Shown here: positions 13,244 through 29,012 of the stretch, piece after piece
Position numbering within the stretch: position 1 is the first letter of the stretch
How the letters are laid out: each line of letters begins with the position of its first letter
From: Thermococcus sp. MAR1
Lineage (GTDB): Archaea; Methanobacteriota_B; Thermococci; Thermococcales; Thermococcaceae
Length of the DNA: 64,000 nt
NCBI RefSeq assembly: GCF_012027305.1
Contig: NZ_SNUF01000001.1
Span: 620,001 to 684,000, forward strand
Reading direction: 5' to 3'
Program-made: the position numbers and the translations under genes
The notes under the pieces: model-generated
What the model was told of the DNA's origin: nothing
Database searches by the model: none
Seen by the model: only the letters and a program-made list of their open reading frames with translations

Positions 13244-14554
13244 TTAACCTAAAGGCGGGGAGGTTTGAGGGGTTCTCATCAGTGCAACCCTTAAAATGGG
13301 TTCTTCGAACCCCTCTGGCCCGGTCTTAGGCCAGTTACCCCTACCCACCGTCAAGCCCGGCAGGCTCGGGGTTATGGTTTTTATTGCCTTCTTCAAAATG
13401 TTGAAGGCACCAACCAAGTCTGCATTGAAAACAAGCCCCGTTGCGGGACACTTAAACAATCCACGAACAAAGCGAGCCCCATCGTGGGGCTTCCCGCAAA
13501 CGGGACAAGTTTTCGAAGTAAAAGCCTCATTCACGACTTCAACAACAATACCATACTCCTCAGCAACCTCGGTTAAGCGCTTGATGACAGTATTGAACCG
13601 CCACACGTGAGAGAGGAGGAAATTCTGCTTTTTGCCCTTCTCAGAGTTTCTACTGATGCCCTTGAGATAACCGACGACAATCTTAGAAACACCCAAATTG
13701 TAAAGCCTTCTAACCGTTTGCCTGACTGCAGTGTTAATGTAATGCCTGGCCTGAAGCTTGGCCTTCTCGTGCATTCTTTTTAACTTCTTGCTCGTTTTGG
13801 CTCCAGACTTGTTGAGTTTCGACTGGTAATCGGCAATCTTCTTCCTCCAGTAAAAATCAATGCTCTTCAACGGCCTTCCGTTCACGAGGAAGCTTTCGCC
13901 GTTTTCAACGTAAACAGCCATCAAATTGTTCACTCCCAAGTCAATTCCCGCGGAGAGACTTCCTTTAGGAGTTTTCGGGAGTGGAACCCATTCTCCACCT
14001 TCGAGTTTTTCCTCTACCGTGAGGCTTAGATGAGCATACCACTTCCGCTTTACCGAGTCGTAAGTGATTTCTAAGCGTCCTTGCTTGCCCTTCAAGTGTA
14101 TTCTACCCTTGAACTGGATTTCAAGGCGTTTGAATTTACCAAGGCCTTTGAGAATGAGCTTGTTTCCATCAATTGTGTATTGGTCGTTCCTGAGGACGAT
14201 TAAGGGTTTTCTCTTTCCATATTCTTTGAGGTAGTTTGGTGGTTTCGGTTTTAGCCAAGAGGGGAGTTCATCGTTCCGCTTCTTCCGAAGGAAGGAGAAG
14301 AATGAACGCCACGCTTCTGCGTTCTTCCGGCAGATTTGTTGGACGGTAGCAGAACCAATTTCCCGCTTGAACTCTTCATAAACTGTCTTTTCAGTTTTAT
14401 TAAAGTCCACGATTTTGTCCTCGAAGAATTGTTGTCTTCTCAAATAATTTACCCGGTTCCAGACTTTTGCTCCTAAGTCTGCTAACTCGGAGAGTGTTTT
14501 TGCCTGCTCCTTGCTCGGCTGGAGTTTAACCGTTACCGCCCTTTTCGTTTTAAC
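13244..14554 (-). CDS. tnpB: TnpB, RuvC-like RNA-guided nuclease of IS605 type; start codon missing
   Basis: About 437 residues if read from the first codon after an in-frame stop (14554). RuvC-I is AGIDLGVNNLMAVY; RuvC-III is NADLVGAFNIL; a zinc finger lies at TCPVCGKPH...FKCPATG, with the fourth cysteine replaced. The expected RuvC-II E-x-L is instead VVGYLKGI; a glutamate in NEAFTSKTC could stand in. The family N-terminus is present (AVTVKLQPSKEQAKTLSELA, about 14539-14480), yet no ATG, GTG or TTG occurs in frame before a TTG at 14443. Codon 14554 is GTT, one base from GTG. The frame is -1 to tnpA and overlaps its last seven codons. Confidence 0.85.
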   Translation of the reverse strand, partial: VKTKRAVTVKLQPSKEQAKTLSELADLGAKVWNRVNYLRRQQFFEDKIVDFNKTEKTVYEEFKREIGSATVQQICRKNAEAWRSFFSFLRKKRNDELPSWLKPKPPNYLKEYGKRKPLIVLRNDQYTIDGNKLILKGLGKFKRLEIQFKGRIHLKGKQGRLEITYDSVKRKWYAHLSLTVEEKLEGGEWVPLPKTPKGSLSAGIDLGVNNLMAVYVENGESFLVNGRPLKSIDFYWRKKIADYQSKLNKSGAKTSKKLKRMHEKAKLQARHYINTAVRQTVRRLYNLGVSKIVVGYLKGISRNSEKGKKQNFLLSHVWRFNTVIKRLTEVAEEYGIVVEVVNEAFTSKTCPVCGKPHDGARFVRGLFKCPATGLVFNADLVGAFNILKKAIKTITPSLPGLTVGRGNWPKTGPEGFEEPILRVALMRTPQTSPPLG

Positions 14555-14967
14555 TCACGCTCCCATTGGGTTTCAACGTAGTGCTTAACAATCTCGTCCG
14601 TCACGTAGCCAACTGTAGTGACAAAATAGGAGCGTGACCATAAGCGACCGTTGGTTGTCTTTGTTCTTAATTCTGGAAATTCTTGGAGGAGTTTTCTTGC
14701 TGTCTTGCCCTTCAGGTGGTTAATTATTTTGGCTGGTGAAAGGTTTGGCTTTGCCCTGAGGAAAACGTGAACGTGGTCGGGCATTACTTCTAGGGCAATA
14801 ACCTCACAGTCGATTTCCTCGGCGTACTCTTTGAGCATTTGTTTGAGCCTTTCGGCGACTTCTCCAGTGAGAATGTCCCTCCGGTATTTCGGTATCCAGG
14901 CGAAGTGATAGGCTAAGTAGTGTTTTACGTGTCTTGTTCTTGAGAAAATTGGGATTTCTTGCTTCAT
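14533..14967 (-). CDS. tnpA: TnpA, IS200/IS605 tyrosine (Y1 HUH) transposase
   Basis: A 144-residue protein of normal length. It has MPDHVHVFLRAKP, the HUH metal-binding motif, and a C-terminal helix VTDEIVKHYVETQ with the catalytic tyrosine. It cuts and rejoins single-stranded DNA at the element ends. Nothing is broken, so the element could in principle still move. Its last bases overlap the tnpB frame. Confidence 0.95.
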   Translation of the reverse strand: MKQEIPIFSRTRHVKHYLAYHFAWIPKYRRDILTGEVAERLKQMLKEYAEEIDCEVIALEVMPDHVHVFLRAKPNLSPAKIINHLKGKTARKLLQEFPELRTKTTNGRLWSRSYFVTTVGYVTDEIVKHYVETQWERELKRKGR

Positions 14968-21289: not shown

Positions 21290-22219
21290 TCAAAGCTTTT
21301 TAATCTTTGCCACGAAGAAGCCGCTCGTGCCGTGCTTGTCGGGGTAGAAGCGCCTCGCCTTTCTTATCTCATCGCTCAGCTCGACTCCAAAGGGCATCGT
21401 TAGAGCCGGCTCGCCGTAGCGAAGGGGCAAAAGCTCAACGTCGAAGTTATCAAGAACCCACTGGATCACGAACTCGTTCTCCTCTGGCTCAAGGGAGCAG
21501 GTGGAGTAGACGAGGGTTCCACCCCTTTTGAGCACGCTTAGGCCCTTCTCAATGAGCCTCATCTGCAGTCCCTGGCAGAACTTTACATCCTCCATCGTTC
21601 TGTTGGACTTCCGCTCCGGGTTCTTGTGTATCGTCCCCGAACCAGTACAGGGGGCATCGAGGAGTATTCTGTCGAACTCGACGCCGAGTTCATCTATGTG
21701 GAGCGACGATTTGTGGAAGAGCACCGTATTTGTGACTCCAAGCCTTGAGAGGTTCAGGCGGGTTTCCCTCAGCCTATCTTCGCCAACGTCGAAGGCGTAG
21801 ATGATGCCCTCGTTCTCCATCAGCTGGGCGAGGTAAGAAGCTTTACCTCCCGGTGCCGCCGCCATGTCGGCAACGACCTCGCCGGGCTTCGGTTCGAGTG
21901 CCACCGGTGGATACATCGAGCTGGCCTCCTGAATGTAGAGGAGACCGCTGAGGTACTCGGGCGTTGAGGTTATCGAGAAGGGTTCCCTCGTCAGGCAGAA
22001 GCCCTCCCTCGCCCAGTGAATCCTCTTAAACTGAAAGCCCTTCTTGTTGAGGAGTTTGGTGAGCCTTGGAACTTCGATGCGAAGGGTATTTATGCGGAAG
22101 CACCTCGGCAGGGGCTTTTCCATCGCCTCGGCTATGCTTAAAGCCCTCTCGCCCCAGAGTTCATAATAGCGCTCCGCGAAGGTCTTCGAGTAGCCGAGGG
22201 AAAACAACTTTTCCAGCAT
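21290..22219 (-). CDS. NOL1/NOP2/Sun-family RNA cytosine-C5 methyltransferase
   Basis: About 309 residues. It transfers methyl from S-adenosylmethionine to C5 of cytosine in tRNA or rRNA. VADMAAAPGGKASYLAQLM is the cofactor motif; DAPCTGSGTIHKNPE and VYSTCSLEPEENE carry the two catalytic cysteines. The N-terminal YSKTFAERYYELWGERA helical part is common in archaeal members. The ATG at 22219 has no ribosome site but lies about 25 bases after TTTTAAA, so the message is probably leaderless. The frame stays open to 22270. The palindrome array lies just upstream of its promoter. Confidence 0.93.
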   Translation of the reverse strand: MLEKLFSLGYSKTFAERYYELWGERALSIAEAMEKPLPRCFRINTLRIEVPRLTKLLNKKGFQFKRIHWAREGFCLTREPFSITSTPEYLSGLLYIQEASSMYPPVALEPKPGEVVADMAAAPGGKASYLAQLMENEGIIYAFDVGEDRLRETRLNLSRLGVTNTVLFHKSSLHIDELGVEFDRILLDAPCTGSGTIHKNPERKSNRTMEDVKFCQGLQMRLIEKGLSVLKRGGTLVYSTCSLEPEENEFVIQWVLDNFDVELLPLRYGEPALTMPFGVELSDEIRKARRFYPDKHGTSGFFVAKIKKL

Positions 22220-22256
22220 GGTGGGGAGTTGGGGGAGGGGTTTAAAAGGTTCTTTG

Positions 22257-22378
22257 TTTTGTGAAAGCATACTTTCACAAAACGCCCATTTTATGAAAGT
22301 GCACTTTCATAAATTGTACCGTTTATGAAAGCCTGCTTTCATAAAATGGGCGTTTTGTGGGGATGCGCTCTCATAAAA
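22257..22378. repeat. Four palindromes at exact 32-bp spacing, nested in a larger dyad
   Basis: Four copies of TTTATGAAAG-N4-CTTTCATAAA (TTTTGTG variants at the ends) lie at 22257-22282, 22290-22313, 22322-22345 and 22353-22378. Their centres are 22269.5, 22301.5, 22333.5 and 22365.5, so the spacing is 32 bp each time, about three helical turns. The second is a perfect 24-bp palindrome. The whole block is itself a dyad about 22317.5: 22276-22299 is the exact reverse complement of 22336-22359, and linkers CGCCCAT and ATGGGCG mirror each other. The fourth copy is imperfect. It lies between the 3' end of the frameshifted island gene and the methyltransferase promoter. Likely a cooperative protein-binding site. 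Confidence 0.95.
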
Positions 22379-22433: not shown

Positions 22434-23577
22434 TCAGAGGTGCCTTAAGGCTTTCTCCGCTTTTTCGAACTTCCCTTCCTTTATGTAGGACAGCGCAAGG
22501 TAGTACATGCCGAGTCTGCAGAGGTCTTCCAACGTGGGGTTTTCGAGCTCTATGATGTCCGTAATCTTCCTCTTGAAGTCCATCATGGCGTTGTTTACCG
22601 CCTCTTCGCTGTAGTTAAGGAGCTTCAGGGCCTGGAGCATGGAAAGGACTTCAAGCTTCGCACTGGGGAGGTCTGTGGATGTTCCAATAGTTCTTTCCTT
22701 CGTCTGTATTCTCTCAACTGGCTGTGCCCTCTTCTGAGCAATGGTCGGTTCCGGTTGCTTCAGTTTAACACCAGCGAATTCTTGGAGTATTTTCAGGTAC
22801 TCCTCGAACTCTTCCCACTTCTTTACTTCCTCGCTCGTTACAGTGGTTATTGGGTTGCCCCATTCATCGAAGCCGCCCCACCCGCTAACGAACTTGTCGT
22901 GTATCTTCATAGCAAGCGGATATACCCTATCAATCATTTTGTCGATCTCCTCCTCGTATGTTCTTACCCCTACATCTCTGAGTGCTACCCGCAGCCAACT
23001 CACAAACTCGTTCCTTTTCTTGGGGTCCTGGAGAACCTCTTCCAGCGGTGGGAGGAGGAAACCATCTTTTAGATCGTCTACTCTTTCCGGTTTTAAACTT
23101 GCGTTATGTAAATATGCCTTCGTGTCCGCGATCTTCACCCTGCTCAACGCTTCCTTTAGTGCCTTTATAAATTTTTCCCTGTAATCGAGATCACGTATCT
23201 TCCCAAACCCGTACTTTGCAATTATTGGCGTTACTAGCAGGTGGAGGAAGGTCGACCACTTCCCTGCTTCGTAGAACCCTCCCTTCATTCGCTCGTAGTC
23301 AGACGGCTCGTGCAGTTTTGGGTTCTTCACCACAGGGATGGGAGGATCTACCATCTCTGACCTGTGTGTGTGTTAGGGCAGCATCTATGGAAATCCGCCC
23401 ATCGAGATCCAGATCTAAACTCTCCTTTATTGCCTTTGCTAGTATTTTCGAACCTATTATGTCTGAAAAAGCTGGTTTATACTCCACATACTTCAGTTTT
23501 TTCTTCTCCTTTCCGAACCACCCCTTCGGCACCTCGTACTCAAATTCTCCCCATCCCATCTCTGCTATAGGCGCCAT
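22434..23577 (-). pseudogene. THTH-family island protein A, frameshifted at a CA repeat
   Basis: Two minus-strand frames make one gene: 23577 to about 23363 (MAPIAEMGWGEFEYEV...ALTHTQ) and about 23363 to 22434 (EMVDPPIPVV...EKALRHL). The break is in a (CA)5 tract at 23363-23372. One more CA unit would give THTH-RSEMVDPPIPV and join the frames. The paralogue at 26385-27506 has THTHWWEH at the same place. The last 75 residues (MLQALKLLNYSEEAVNNA...YYLALSYIKEGKFEKAE) match that paralogue closely and look like a helical repeat. Function unknown. It follows ATPase 1 by 55 bases. Start ATG 23577 has GAGGGGTG. A phase-variable gene or a recent mutation are both possible. Confidence 0.85.
23363..23372. 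repeat. (CA)5 dinucleotide tract at the frameshift
   Basis: Five TG units on the plus strand (CA on the coding strand) exactly where the reading frame of island protein A breaks. Six units would restore frame. The intact paralogue also has five units at 27301-27310, but is followed by CTGG rather than GG, so it stays open. Confidence 0.95.
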
Positions 23578-23632
23578 TTTTCACCCCTCACAGACTGTAG
23601 GTTAAAAACATATAAAACGGTTGTCTGCCGGC

Positions 23633-24919
23633 TCAGGTGGAACCCATTAAAAACCTCCACAGGGGTATCATATCTATGATAATGCCCTTCCCTTTTACCC
23701 TGCCCGCCACGTCCCACGTAATCAGCAGGGCGTTTTTAAAGCCGAATTCTCTCGAAGCTTTTCTGAGAGCGTTCACCTCACGCTTAAACGTTTCTTCTCC
23801 GCTGATATCGTAGCTCACCTGGATCAGCGTCTCCTCTTCAGGCAGGACGAAATCAACCTCCCAGTTCTTCCCGAGGGCATAATTAACTTCCTTTCTCCTC
23901 CGGAGGAGCTCGATGAAAACGGCGTTTTCCATAAGCCTCCCCATGTTCTCGCTGAACTTCACGCTCAGAAACGTCAAAAAGGACGTATCAACGAAGTATA
24001 TCTTTCTGGGGTGCTGCATCCTGAGCCTCACCTTGGGGGAATACACCTCAAGGGGAAATGCAAAGTAGCACTCCTCAAGGTACCTCATGTAGCTGGCGAG
24101 CGTTGATTTGGATATTGAGTAGCCCATGCTCCTCATTGTTTTGGCGGTTTTACTCAGGCTTACGTACTCGGAGTTAAGGAGAAGTCGGATGAAGGTTCTG
24201 AGCTCTTCCGGATTCCTGATTGAGTACCTCTCCACGACATCGAGGGCTATTACCGTGTTGAAGTAGTCCCGGACGATTAACCCCTTGACCCTCACGTCGC
24301 TGGTCAGAACGACCTCCGGAAAGCCTCCATAGAGGAGGTACTCCCTCAGCAGGTTGAGCAAGGCTGGCTTTTTTGGGCTGAAATCTAAATTCTCCGGCAC
24401 CTCAAAACCATTGAACCTCAGGAACTCCCGGAAGCTCAGGGGAAAAACCTCGAACGTCAGAGCCCTGCCCCTGAGTGAGGTGGGGATTTCTCTGCTGGAG
24501 AGCTTTGAGGATGAGCCGCTTAAGAAAAGCCTCACGTCTCTCCTCGAATCATGGACTCTCCTCACCCACGAGTCCCAGCCCGGAATGTTCTGTATCTCGT
24601 CCAGAAAGAGGTACAGCCTGTCCTTTTTCCCGTAGAGCTCCTCTATCGTTGGTATGAGCTCCGTTAGAGTTTCGGTTCTCTTTTCGAGCCTTTCATCTTC
24701 AAAGTTGATGTAGAATATTTCCTCCCTTGGAGCTTTTTTTGACAGCTCGTTGATGAGCTGGAACATCAGGTACGTTTTGCCTGACCTCCGACAGCCGGCA
24801 AAGGTTACAACCTTTTTCGGTTTATCCGGTATCAGGGAGACATCAAAGTCCCTCTCGACGAGCTCGGGCGTCCAGGTTTCCTGCCACTCCACCAAAACCT
24901 TGGCCAAATCCTCCCTCAT
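23633..24919 (-). CDS. Archaeal AAA ATPase with DUF4143 C-terminus (ATPase 1)
   Basis: A 428-residue protein. Walker A is FAGCRRSGKTYLMF at about residue 37; Walker B is LYLFLDEIQNIPGW at about 102; LFLSGSSSKLSSREIPTSLRGR near 130 is the sensor/arginine region typical of this group. The DUF4143 domain at about 210-400 ends in a nuclease-like core, WEVDFVLPEEETLIQVSY, where the usual E-x-K has become Q-V-S, so it is probably not catalytic. Proteins of this kind are expanded in Thermococcales; their role is unknown. It heads a two-gene unit with protein A and shares a divergent promoter region with ATPase 2. Confidence 0.88.
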   Translation of the reverse strand: MREDLAKVLVEWQETWTPELVERDFDVSLIPDKPKKVVTFAGCRRSGKTYLMFQLINELSKKAPREEIFYINFEDERLEKRTETLTELIPTIEELYGKKDRLYLFLDEIQNIPGWDSWVRRVHDSRRDVRLFLSGSSSKLSSREIPTSLRGRALTFEVFPLSFREFLRFNGFEVPENLDFSPKKPALLNLLREYLLYGGFPEVVLTSDVRVKGLIVRDYFNTVIALDVVERYSIRNPEELRTFIRLLLNSEYVSLSKTAKTMRSMGYSISKSTLASYMRYLEECYFAFPLEVYSPKVRLRMQHPRKIYFVDTSFLTFLSVKFSENMGRLMENAVFIELLRRRKEVNYALGKNWEVDFVLPEEETLIQVSYDISGEETFKREVNALRKASREFGFKNALLITWDVAGRVKGKGIIIDMIPLWRFLMGST

Positions 24920-24940
24920 GGGTACCAGTACTCCCTCATC

Positions 24941-24983
24941 ATTTATAAATCTTGTCCAATATACTGGACAGCCATTTATAAAT
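24941..24983. promoter_or_regulatory. Divergent promoter with central dyad between ATPases 1 and 2
   Basis: Two identical ATTTATAAAT boxes (24941-24950 and 24974-24983) flank TGTCCA-ATATAC-TGGACA (24953-24970). The left box is 22-31 bases before the ATPase 1 start on the minus strand, the right distance for a nearly leaderless message. The right box faces ATPase 2. A repressor on the central dyad could block both directions (inference). Confidence 0.6.
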
Positions 24984-25065
24984 TGCTGTTCTGCACGCTT
25001 GCCCTCATGGAAAATGCTGTAGAAAGATTATTATACTTTGCCAACATCATTTTAACGGTGGTCTC

Positions 25066-26388
25066 ATGTTCGTGGACAGGGAACGGGAGCTGGAGTTCCT
25101 CGAAAGAAAGTGGAAGGAGAAGAGCGCCCAGCTCATAATCATCTACGGGCGAAGAAGGGTTGGAAAGACAATGCTCCTGAAGGAGTTCTTGAAGGATAAG
25201 GGGGGCGTTTACTTTTTGGCCACCGCTGACTCAATGGGTGAGAACGTTAAAGGACTGGCTGAAAAGTTCGCGGAGCTGACGGGGAGGGAATACTTCAAGG
25301 AGGTAGAGGATTTTGGAAAGCTCTTCCGTTACCTTGCGGATGAGCTGAAAAACGAAAGGGTAGCCGTAGTTCTGGACGAGTTCCAGTATCTCATGAGCCT
25401 TAAACCAGGGATTCTGAGCGTTCTCCAAAAGGTCTGGGACGAGCATCTCAGGGATACCGGGATTTTCCTTGTCCTCTGCGGCTCCTCCATCGGGATGATG
25501 GAGAGGGTTATGGAATACAGAAGCCCGCTTTATGGGCGAAGGACTGGGCAGTGGAAGGTAGAGCCCTTCGACATAAGGGCGATAGCGGAGATGCTTCCCG
25601 ACAGGGGCATGGAGGAGCTTGTAAAAACCTATGCGGTCTTCGGCGGTGTTCCCTTCTACCTCGATATGGTGAAAGATTTGAGCGTGGAGGGGGCTATAAG
25701 GGAGAAGGTCTTGAAAAAGGGAGAAGTTCTCTACGAGGAGCCGGAGTTTCTCCTGAGAGAGGAGTTGAGGGAGCCGAGGGTTTACAAGCTCATCCTCAAG
25801 GGCATCTCCCTCGGGTACGAAACCCTCGGAGAGCTGGTTAATTTCACGGGACTTAACAGGGGAAACCTTTCAAGATACCTCGACACGCTTGAAAGGCTCG
25901 GCATAGTTGGCTACGAGCTTCCCTATGGAAAGAGAAAGAGGGGACGCTACTACATCAAGGACAACTTCTTCAACTTCTGGTTCCGCTTTGTCTATCCAAA
26001 TCTGGCCGACTTGGAGCTGGGGCTGGTCGATGAGGTCTGGGTCAGGGTTGAGAAAGACCTTAACGCCTACTACGGAAGAATGTTTGAGAGACTGATAAGG
26101 GAAATGCTTAAGATGAAGATACTCGACTTCGGGCAGAGAAGGGTCGCAAGGTGGTGGCACAAAGGGGAGGAAATAGACGCAATCCTTGAGCTCGATGACG
26201 GCCTGTTATTCGTCGAGGTGAAGTGGGGCAGGCTGAGGAGACGGGAGGCAGAGAGGATTCTTGGAGATTTGGAAAAGAAGGCGGAGCGCTTTGGGGGCAA
26301 AAAGAGGTTCCTGCTCATCGCCAGGAAAATCGATGAAAAAGGGGAGGGCATGATGGACCTGGAAGACATTGAGGCGCTTGTGCGCTAA
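25066..26388 (+). CDS. Archaeal AAA ATPase with DUF234 nuclease-like end (ATPase 2)
   Basis: A 440-residue protein. Walker A IIYGRRRVGKTMLLKEFL at about residue 25; Walker B VAVVLDEFQYLMS near 105; LCGSSIGMMERV and SPLYGRRTGQWKVEPF follow, as in the archaeal ATPase_2 group. A winged-helix segment lies near 245-295 (LGELVNFTGLNRGNLSRYLD). The C-terminal DUF234 part has RRVARWWHKGEEIDAIL and LLFVEVKWG, a full PD-(D/E)xK-type D...ExK signature, so nuclease activity is possible. It is convergent with protein B and overlaps its 3' end by four bases. Function unknown. Confidence 0.9.
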   Translation: MFVDRERELEFLERKWKEKSAQLIIIYGRRRVGKTMLLKEFLKDKGGVYFLATADSMGENVKGLAEKFAELTGREYFKEVEDFGKLFRYLADELKNERVAVVLDEFQYLMSLKPGILSVLQKVWDEHLRDTGIFLVLCGSSIGMMERVMEYRSPLYGRRTGQWKVEPFDIRAIAEMLPDRGMEELVKTYAVFGGVPFYLDMVKDLSVEGAIREKVLKKGEVLYEEPEFLLREELREPRVYKLILKGISLGYETLGELVNFTGLNRGNLSRYLDTLERLGIVGYELPYGKRKRGRYYIKDNFFNFWFRFVYPNLADLELGLVDEVWVRVEKDLNAYYGRMFERLIREMLKMKILDFGQRRVARWWHKGEEIDAILELDDGLLFVEVKWGRLRRREAERILGDLEKKAERFGGKKRFLLIARKIDEKGEGMMDLEDIEALVR

Positions 26389-27506
26389 AGCCCCCTGAAG
26401 ACGTCCTCAGCTTTTTCAAACTTCCCCTCCCTTATGTAGGACAGCGCGAGGTAGTACAGGCCGAGCCTGTAAACGTCCTCGGGCGTCGGATAATCGAGCT
26501 CCGTTATCTTCCTGATCTTCTTCTCAAGGTCTTTAACCGCGTTGTTCACGGCATCTTCGCCGTAGTTGAGGAGCTTTAGTGCCTGGAGCATCGTCAGGAC
26601 GTCCACCGTCAGCGAGCCGCCGCTTTCCTTCCCGTCCTTCCCCTTCTTCCCCTGGACTGCCTTCGGGCGCTTCACTTTCCTTTTGGCTCCGGTGAAGTCT
26701 TCGAGGAACCTGATGAGCTCGTGGTATGCGGGGTGCTTCATGACGCCCTTTTCGCTGGGGCTTGCCTGCATGATCTCCTTGAAACTCTCCTTGTCTGCAA
26801 ATTTCTTCACGATCTCGTAGGATTTTTTTAATGCGTAGGCGATGTCCTCCTTCGGTATGAGGATCTTGTATGCGTGGTAGAACTCGTTTTTTAATGCCTC
26901 CGCAAGTTTTTCCACGTTTTCCTCGTTCTCGAAGAGTTCGTCCGGCTCCGGTATGACGTATGCATTCGGCTCCGGACGTCTTTTGATATGTCTTGCCGCT
27001 TCTTCGTCATTCACGTCGCCGGGTATTGCGTGCACCTTCTTCTTCGCCACCTTCGTGAGCGCCCGCCCCGTGACGTGGTGCGGGTCTGGATCGTGCACGA
27101 ACCTGCCGAATATGCCGGTTTCCCTGTGCTTATACGTGGCGGCGAACGTGGCAAGCCCGATCGTTGCCCTCAGCAGTTCCAGTTTCCTGTGGTAGTCCCA
27201 TATCCTCCACGGCGGTATGTCTTCGCCCCCCTCGAGCACGAGATATACGCGCCTGTACTCATTCCTATTCGTTTTTTCCCTTATCGCGTGTTCCCACCAG
27301 TGTGTGTGTGTTATGGCAGTAATTGTGCCGCTCGGTAGGTCCAGGCCCCGGACGGCAGCCACCGCGATTCCATCACTCATTCTTTTGTATTTGCTTTCCG
27401 GATCCCTCACCACCACGTACTCCGCTTCCCACTCCTTTACCGGCCCGAACAGCCCCTTCTTCTCCCTGATCTTTACCTTCCTCGGCTCCTTCTTCATCAG
27501 TCTCAT
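26385..27506 (-). CDS. THTH-family island protein B (intact)
   Basis: A 373-residue protein of unknown function, paralogous to protein A. Shared parts: a tight THTHWWEH motif near residue 70 (possible metal site), and a C-terminal module of about 75 residues, MLQALKLLNYGEDAVNNAVKDLEKKI to YYLALSYIREGKFEKAED, which resembles a TPR-like helical pair. Between them is a basic, histidine-rich region (RFVHDPDPHHVTGRALTKVAKKK). A lysine-rich linker near 270-300 separates the domains. No signal or membrane segment. It follows ATPase 3 by 67 bases on the same strand, the same order as ATPase 1 and protein A. Start ATG 27506 after GGTGGTAATGAC. Confidence 0.85.
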   Translation of the reverse strand: MRLMKKEPRKVKIREKKGLFGPVKEWEAEYVVVRDPESKYKRMSDGIAVAAVRGLDLPSGTITAITHTHWWEHAIREKTNRNEYRRVYLVLEGGEDIPPWRIWDYHRKLELLRATIGLATFAATYKHRETGIFGRFVHDPDPHHVTGRALTKVAKKKVHAIPGDVNDEEAARHIKRRPEPNAYVIPEPDELFENEENVEKLAEALKNEFYHAYKILIPKEDIAYALKKSYEIVKKFADKESFKEIMQASPSEKGVMKHPAYHELIRFLEDFTGAKRKVKRPKAVQGKKGKDGKESGGSLTVDVLTMLQALKLLNYGEDAVNNAVKDLEKKIRKITELDYPTPEDVYRLGLYYLALSYIREGKFEKAEDVFRGL

Positions 27507-27525
27507 GTCATTACCACCGACCCCG

Positions 27526-27551
27526 CTGGGCCCGTAAATGTTTCGGCCCAG
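27526..27551. promoter_or_regulatory. Inverted repeat at the protein B promoter
   Basis: CTGGGCC (27526-27532) and GGCCCAG (27545-27551) form a perfect 7-bp dyad with a 12-base spacer. On the minus strand a TTTTATA box lies just upstream (27555-27561), so the dyad covers the expected start of transcription of protein B. It could be an operator, or a terminator behind ATPase 3. Confidence 0.55.
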
Positions 27552-27573
27552 AAGTATAAAACCGTTTCTTTTT

Positions 27574-28941
27574 TCAGGTTCCCTGAAAGTCCCTCAGGTC
27601 CCAAACCATCCAGCCGTCATCCATCAGCTCTTCCTTTCCTTCAACCTCCTTCGCCACGAGACCGTAGCCCTTCTCCCAGTCATCGAGACCGACAAGCCCG
27701 GCCTTCCGCTCCAGATCCTTCAGGATTTCTCTCGCCTCCCTCCCGCTAAGGTCTTTCCACTTCACTTCCACGAAGAGAACTTTTTTCTCCCTCTCATTCA
27801 GCGCCACAATGTCAATCTCCTCCCCTTTATGCCACCACCTTCCAATCCTCGTGAACCTGAAGGGTATCTTTTCAGCCCTGTTGAGCTCAACTAAGAACTG
27901 CCTCGCTATTTCCTCGAAAACGAAGCCAAGGTATTCATTAAACTTGGGCTTGATGTCTCCAACAACATCAAAGCCCATCTCGATCTCGCTTTTCCTCGGA
28001 TAGACGAAGCGGAACCAGAAGTTGAAGAGCCTGTCGGTTATTTTGTAGATGCCCCTTCCCCGTCCCACGAGGGGCTTTTCCTCGCTTATGTATCCCATCT
28101 CCTCAAGGACGTTGAGGTACTTGCCGAGCGAGTTAAGGTCAACCTTAGCTCTGTCGGCTATCTGGCCGAAGCGGTTGTAGCCGAGTGCTATCGCCCTCAG
28201 TATGGAGAAGTACCTCGAAACATCCCTCAGCTCCTGTTTAAGAAGGTATTTTGGCTCATCATAGTATTTTGCACCCTTCGACAGCAGAAGAACTCTTAGA
28301 TTGTCCCAGAAGTCAAGCTCTGGATTGTAATCAGCCCAGTACTGTGGGACTCCTCCAAAGACGGAATAGACGTGGACGGCCTCCTCGGTGCTTAGGGGGT
28401 GGAACTTCCTTACGTTGAAAAAGTCCATTTCCTCAACTTTCCACGCTCCGGTTCTTCTTCCGTATATCGGTGACTTTGCTGAAAGAACGCCCTCCATGAA
28501 CGAAACCAGCGAACCGCAGAGTATCAGCATTATCTTTGTATTAGAGAGATGCATATCCCAGTACTTTTGAAGGACGCTGAGAAAGTCCCTTTGGGCTTTC
28601 GCTATATATTGAACCTCATCTATCACCACGACGAGCCTTTCAGAGCTTTTTCCCGCGAGATAAGTGAAGAAAGCCCTCCAGTTCTGAAGTGGATTCTCCC
28701 TGAGGAACGGGTCTTTGAAATACTCGGCGAGCCTTTCGGAGAAGTCGTCGAGGATGGTCTCGCTCTCCTCGGCGAGCAGATAGACCCCATCAACTTCGGA
28801 AAGGAACTTCTGAAGGATGTATGTTTTTCCTATCCTCCTCCGTCCGTAGAGGATTATCAGCTCGGGCCTTTCAGAGTGGTATCTTTCACGCAGGAACTCA
28901 AGCTCTGACTCCCGGTCAATAAACTTACTCACGAGTATCAT
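27574..28941 (-). CDS. Archaeal AAA ATPase with DUF234 nuclease-like end (ATPase 3)
   Basis: A 455-residue paralogue of ATPase 2. Walker A IILYGRRRIGKTYILQKF near residue 30; Walker B LVVVIDEVQYIAK near 113; LCGSLVSFMEGVLSAKSP near 145; winged helix near 260-300 (FGQIADRAKVDLNSLGKYLN); C-terminal RIGRWWHKGEEIDIVALNE and VLFVEVKWKDL with an intact ExK. Start ATG 28941 lies about 26 bases after a TTATAAAC box, so the message is probably leaderless; an in-frame GTG at 28932 is an alternative. It heads the second ATPase/THTH unit. Confidence 0.9.
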   Translation of the reverse strand: MILVSKFIDRESELEFLRERYHSERPELIILYGRRRIGKTYILQKFLSEVDGVYLLAEESETILDDFSERLAEYFKDPFLRENPLQNWRAFFTYLAGKSSERLVVVIDEVQYIAKAQRDFLSVLQKYWDMHLSNTKIMLILCGSLVSFMEGVLSAKSPIYGRRTGAWKVEEMDFFNVRKFHPLSTEEAVHVYSVFGGVPQYWADYNPELDFWDNLRVLLLSKGAKYYDEPKYLLKQELRDVSRYFSILRAIALGYNRFGQIADRAKVDLNSLGKYLNVLEEMGYISEEKPLVGRGRGIYKITDRLFNFWFRFVYPRKSEIEMGFDVVGDIKPKFNEYLGFVFEEIARQFLVELNRAEKIPFRFTRIGRWWHKGEEIDIVALNEREKKVLFVEVKWKDLSGREAREILKDLERKAGLVGLDDWEKGYGLVAKEVEGKEELMDDGWMVWDLRDFQGT

Positions 28942-28957
28942 ACTTTAGAGTAAGTTT
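28921..28957. promoter_or_regulatory. 37-bp nested palindrome over the ATPase 3 start
   Basis: AAACTTACTC (28921-28930) and GAGTAAGTTT (28948-28957) are perfect mirror arms. Between them AGTAT-C-ATACT (28934-28944) is a second perfect dyad with the same centre, 28939. The structure covers the ATG and probably the transcription start, as a TTTATAAG box lies at about 28963-28971. It is placed where a bound repressor would shut off the gene, perhaps by the product itself (inference). Confidence 0.7.
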
Positions 28958-29012
28958 CTTTGTTTATAAGGGTTTCTTTGCTGAACTTCAAAACAGGAAA
29001 AATAGAATGGAA

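Follow-up and report, generated by a model that had tools for sequence, protein, structure and literature searches.

The phased palindrome array described here probably serves as the autoregulatory operator for a gene encoding an AAA_14–winged-helix–DUF4143 ATPase, cooperatively bound by the winged helix of the very protein whose expression it would control. This reading, which is built on the comparison of sequences, has the gene lost from, or replaced in, the genome of Thermococcus sp. MAR1 that provided the window (the whole 64,000-nucleotide stretch of DNA that was analysed). A search of that genome revealed no ortholog of the array-linked ATPase, so that the array stands as an orphan beside the promoter of an RNA methyltransferase gene. 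Reading it as an orphan accounts for the persistence of an isolated phased palindrome array without its gene.

The array itself is real. Flanked by the methyltransferase gene on one side and a frame-broken gene (22434–23577) on the other, it comprises three near-perfect 24-bp palindromes spaced exactly 32 bp apart and then a decayed fourth, as judged against the consensus TTTRTGAAAG-N4-CTTTCAYAAA with its 20 fixed positions (Table 1). The four centres (22269.5, 22301.5, 22333.5 and 22365.5) lie precisely where an earlier note on this DNA had placed them, and the 32-bp period that it gave is exact, although the fourth site, scoring 15/20 against 20/20 for the others, has to be seen as a degenerate site and not as an equal member of the array. 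This site is just as degenerate in the two nearest relatives (15/20 in G002 and 14/20 in G059). The region has a paired-dyad score of 21, compared with at most 17 in 300 dinucleotide shuffles, and the next-best matches to the consensus elsewhere in the 64 kb window do not exceed 15/20. The note had also described a global dyad containing a 24-bp perfect inverted repeat. It is present in the window (centred on 22317.5, 48 of 62 positions matching, longest perfect stretch 24) but not in the homologous arrays of the same two relatives, where the longest perfect runs are 8 (G002) and 10 (G059). The global dyad is thus incidental and the 32-bp register is the conserved feature.

Table 1. Coordinates of the array and of neighbouring features in the window
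Feature	Position	Strand	Basis or remark
RNA m5C methyltransferase gene, NOL1/NOP2/sun-type (RsmB/F-like)	21290..22219	-	downstream of the orphan array
Methyltransferase TATA box (CCTTTTAAA)	22241..22247	-	sequence; core promoter shared by array-free relatives
Junction where G002 and G059 instead hold the ATPase gene, TATA and P0	22247..22258	.	alignment to G002 and G059
P1 palindrome (TTTGTGAAAGcataCTTTCACAAA)	22258..22281	.	20/20 to consensus; the site closest to the methyltransferase promoter
P2 palindrome	22290..22313	.	20/20; 32 bp from P1
P3 palindrome	22322..22345	.	20/20; 32 bp from P2
P4, decayed fourth palindrome	22354..22377	.	15/20; left arm degenerate
Paralogous AAA_14–DUF4143 ATPase gene	23633..24919	-	PDC-S01 profile, E 5e-110; still in the window
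Promoter dyads of this paralog (ACAGCaATTTATAAATgGCTGT, TGTCCAgtatatTGGACA, then TATA)	24941..24989	-	kept in G002, G059, G068 and G083

In relatives carrying the ATPase the array is tied to its gene. All 15 genomes with a full-length 439-aa ATPase gene have the array at the promoter of that gene, which in Thermococcus is located between argF and the methyltransferase gene while in other genera gene and array occur together at loci away from argF–methyltransferase. The protein has an internal winged helix besides its Pfam AAA_14 and DUF4143 domains and is COG1373-like; its residues 40–398 match the profile of the PADLOC candidate defence family PDC-S01 (E 4.4e-34), and its HTH segment exceeds the Pfam HTH_5 cut-off. 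An AlphaFold2 model based on six orthologs reached a pLDDT of 46, too low to be usable, and a sequence search for solved structures gave no match. The promoter is built into the array: TTATAA starts 2 bp past the 24-bp P1 site, so that the P1 homologue abuts the ATPase TATA box, and an extra palindrome in the 32-bp register, P0, lies between TATA and ATG, overlapping the end of the former and reaching the latter. This P1/TATA/P0 geometry was measured in one genome from each of four genera (G010, G061, G069 and G083) and does not differ between them, and 42 of 43 spacings in ATPase-carrying genomes are exactly 32 bp. An array that flanks a TATA box and puts one site between TATA and ATG, with a strict register aligning the sites on one helix face, fits well with the cooperative operator that the note had listed among its readings. 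The arrangement extends to a Thermoplasmatota ortholog of 47% identity (L209), which has three sites at 32 bp, a TATA box and P0 at the ATG, with the half-site TGTGATA in place of TGTGAAAG. The L209 genome (G095) is a 1.5-Mb MAG unusually dense in DUF4143 matches, of which it has 15. In another locus (L113 of G042) the ATPase is a pseudogene, the TATA box is lost and the P2 and P0 palindromes are fused, apparently by recombination between repeats. No relative was found in viral contigs, and plasmids yielded no close relative of the array's ATPase, only family members of less than 30% identity.

Across Thermococcales, two palindromes at 32 bp occur in 38 of 94 genomes, while a 31-bp-spacing version of the pattern, serving as control, matches only one genome and a reversed control pattern none. 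About 25 genomes besides that of the window share its ATPase-less arrangement, with one to five sites each. In the argF gene tree ATPase-plus genomes are scattered among array-only and array-free ones. Relatives with single, unphased palindromes, which the note had said would refute its reading, are limited to a small number of genomes that lack the ATPase, G057 among them, and the 32-bp spacing is kept in nearly all the rest; register breaks amount to 4/47 in ATPase-less genomes versus 1/43 with the ATPase. We had expected the array to decay once the ATPase was lost, and palindrome scores do fall slightly (from 18.65 to 17.92), but arm constraint is unchanged. Loops and spacers diverge about 4 times faster than the palindrome arms, the arm/spacer divergence ratio being about 0.25 with and without the ATPase gene alike in a sample selected by score. 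The constraint on the palindromes in ATPase-less genomes exceeds what is expected of a simple relic, and since it is unchanged in the arms we do not claim that these arrays are pure relics.

Such conservation would also be compatible with the array being a functional upstream element of the methyltransferase promoter, read by a trans factor other than the ATPase, with the ATPase gene sharing or hijacking it. In ATPase-less genomes the distance between P1 and the methyltransferase TATA box is indeed constant and P1 is well conserved, even as the sole site (G057). When anchored on this TATA box it scores 18–20/20 in 16 of these genomes, is intermediate in two and is gone from the rest. This bimodal distribution is less suggestive of slow decay than of maintenance or a refreshing of alleles. 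On the other hand, the methyltransferase core promoter (GAACCTTTTAAACC) is also present without any array in many Thermococcus genomes and hence does not need it, no known regulator is implicated there, and the array–ATPase unit lies away from the methyltransferase gene in other genera and is kept by the Thermoplasmatota ortholog. Moreover, exchange of alleles with ATPase-carrying strains could refresh the arrays: that of G006, which lacks the ATPase, agrees with that of G039, which has it, at every position over 88 bp within flanks that are 93% identical, which favours such exchange. We consider it rather unlikely that the array serves the methyltransferase gene, whether as its main or as a second role. 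The link to the methyltransferase promoter made in the note is correct in that the two adjoin today, but the array belongs to the ATPase gene missing from this genome.

What sets alleles with the ATPase apart from those lacking it is a clean cassette that starts at the edge of P1. Where G002 has a 1.8-kb segment the window reads 22253|22258, and where G059 has a 1.35-kb segment it reads 22247|22258, so that compared with both it passes straight from the methyltransferase promoter to P1. This difference might suggest that the array marks where a mobile cassette or recombination hotspot ends, its palindromes serving DNA exchange instead of transcription. G082 and G083 have array and ATPase in common and diverge immediately outside the array, the argF–methyltransferase interval accumulates AAA ATPase genes, and the cassettes of G069 (L098, 4340–5898) and G061 (L100) carry a methyltransferase gene fragment or promoter remnant on their 3′ side, from which we conclude that they were transferred out of the locus in Thermococcus. 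However, the far end of the cassette shows no repeats, no target duplication was seen, paralogs at unrelated loci have the same layout (see below), and a TATA box and start codon built into the array register are explicable only by promoter function. A role in DNA exchange is therefore improbable.

The operator reading is also supported by the rest of the family. We scanned the 110-bp upstream regions of 96 DUF4143 genes in 19 clusters, a sample that includes three genes for the array's own ATPase and the Thermoplasmatota ortholog, for two matched dyads with an allowed spacing of 28–39 bp. A score of at least 14, the cut-off, was obtained for 54 of the 96 genes in 14 of the 19 clusters, all 54 being spaced 32–35 bp (34 bp in 33 genes, 33 bp in 10, 35 bp in seven and 32 bp in four); in the remaining five clusters no dyad pair was detectable over the 28–39 bp scanned. 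Only two of 61 control promoters reach 14, both of them holding this array, against none of the 59 array-free controls. The paralog palindromes surround their own TATA boxes, with both sites upstream of TATA in several cases, and their sequence is private to each paralog, as in the operators TTGGTAATnnnATTACCAA, TTGATAnnnnnnTATCAA, TGTGGTTnnnAACCACA, TTTACCAGTATGGTGGTAAA and TGGTACGGTATAGTGTACCA. In a single genome as many as a dozen paralogs have this layout at their promoters. The window still contains one such case, that of the paralogous ATPase gene in Table 1, whose promoter dyads are unrelated in sequence to the array and overlap the TATA region of the paralog. These dyads adjoin a divergent gene for a DUF234-type ATPase; the matched-dyad layout was not found for the DUF234-type ATPases of the window (25066–26388 and 27574–28941).

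Outside Thermococcales, about four of the ten testable DUF4143 genes of one Thermoplasmatota genome have the layout, as do three archaeal plasmid copies at 32–33 bp, two of them haloarchaeal at 33 bp. The plasmid genes of Haloferax larsenii (L291, beside a Cas3′′ gene) and Haladaptatus (L292) show two to three TTGTRGG-N-CCTACAA palindromes at 33 bp, upstream of position 474 in each. Most of the longer haloarchaeal copies lack the layout at 32–35 bp (in L304 the one scoring pair is spaced 39 bp, beyond this range), and it was found in none of five bacterial copies tested (three plasmid copies and two from Thermus). A layout universal to the family is ruled out by these bacterial and longer haloarchaeal members. 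Being frequent in Thermococcales and missing from many distant copies, it is a rule common in the former and patchy beyond.

One family with one layout and private site sequences points to the protein itself as the reader, through its own winged helix. We propose that ATPase dimers would bind each palindrome by means of this internal winged helix and that the three-turn spacing would place them on one face of the DNA, allowing cooperative assembly. P0, between TATA and ATG, and P1, abutting TATA, would then shut the ATPase's own promoter, since by bracketing the TATA box they would exclude TBP/TFB or the polymerase, while the upstream sites P2–P4 could act as an anchor or titration reservoir. 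In this manner a candidate defence protein might be held at a set level until the complex is disturbed, perhaps by its nucleotide state or by invading DNA.

The proposed circuit resembles the autoregulation of toxin–antitoxin systems such as RelBE and HigBA, which involves cooperative operator binding (PMC4803016). The likeness, which is one of resemblance only, concerns the self-linked palindromic operators at the own promoter, the several phased sites and the conditional cooperativity to be expected. It contrasts with these systems in that a single gene is involved, a putative reader, a motor and a nuclease-like domain being combined in one polypeptide, and that there is no antitoxin gene. 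Archaeal repressors of the Lrp and TrmB families (PMC4158304), whose sites flank or overlap TATA, are a further parallel, since inverted repeats placed there would keep out TBP/TFB or the polymerase, except that here the linked gene encodes an AAA ATPase and not a dedicated regulator, and that paralogs share the spacing while their site sequences are private.

Other readings fare less well than that of an operator. That the array acts as an RNA hairpin (terminator or structured leader) rather than as a DNA site might be suggested by the very stable RNA fold of the array strand in the window genome (−63 kcal/mol, z −11.6). Yet it is the global dyad that makes the long hairpin possible, and this dyad is not conserved while the DNA register is; a strict 32-bp register with variable spacers would be meaningless for separate hairpins. 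In addition, the presumed start of a leaderless transcript is located at P0 or downstream of it, and the placement of both sites upstream of TATA in several paralogs is likewise at odds with an RNA element, which makes this reading very improbable. A centromere-like or iteron (replication) array, both of which the note had named, can scarcely be credited at all. Phased palindromes beside an ATPase gene bear a superficial resemblance to par loci, but there is a single chromosomal array per genome, which goes with ATPase promoters and which many complete genomes lack, and no Rep, ParB-type or other partition protein is linked to it.

PDC-S01-type ATPases are reported to be one of the most common families of putative defence proteins in prokaryotes, validation pending for most such candidates. 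The array-linked ATPase matches the profiles and domains of PDC-S01 (AAA_14 and DUF4143; COG1373-like), for which an anti-virus role is a candidate function only, and the private phased operators are the element that is new here compared with PDC-S01 as known. Judged by title and abstract, the literature found on DUF4143 and COG1373 holds nothing on regulation or promoters, and the family-wide operator regularity appears undescribed so far. A gene-specific operator with fixed spacing offers a direct handle on these ATPases, since it names a likely DNA ligand for each protein and predicts autoregulation, and recognition specificity becomes testable over dozens of natural protein–operator pairs. 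As a tentative extension, many archaeal PDC-S01 ATPases might be self-reading switches, with private palindromes forming two to five sites three turns apart around their own TATA box and the motor assembling on its own gene and sensing state through it, orphan arrays persisting as bound decoys or as regulators of neighbouring genes.

A few observations concern the surroundings of the array. The argF–methyltransferase interval (22434–29012) is an insertion hotspot, holding AAA ATPase genes in the window, the array only in G022, G006, G032 and G030, and other contents elsewhere. Within it, a "THTH" gene at 22434–23577 (minus strand) is frame-broken into ORFs of 306 and 92 aa and has an intact paralog at 26385–27506; neither gave a match in a Pfam search. 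Further away in the window, a TnpA-like ORF (14533–14967) and a TnpB-like ORF (13244–14443), named from their translations only, form an IS605/IS200-type pair.
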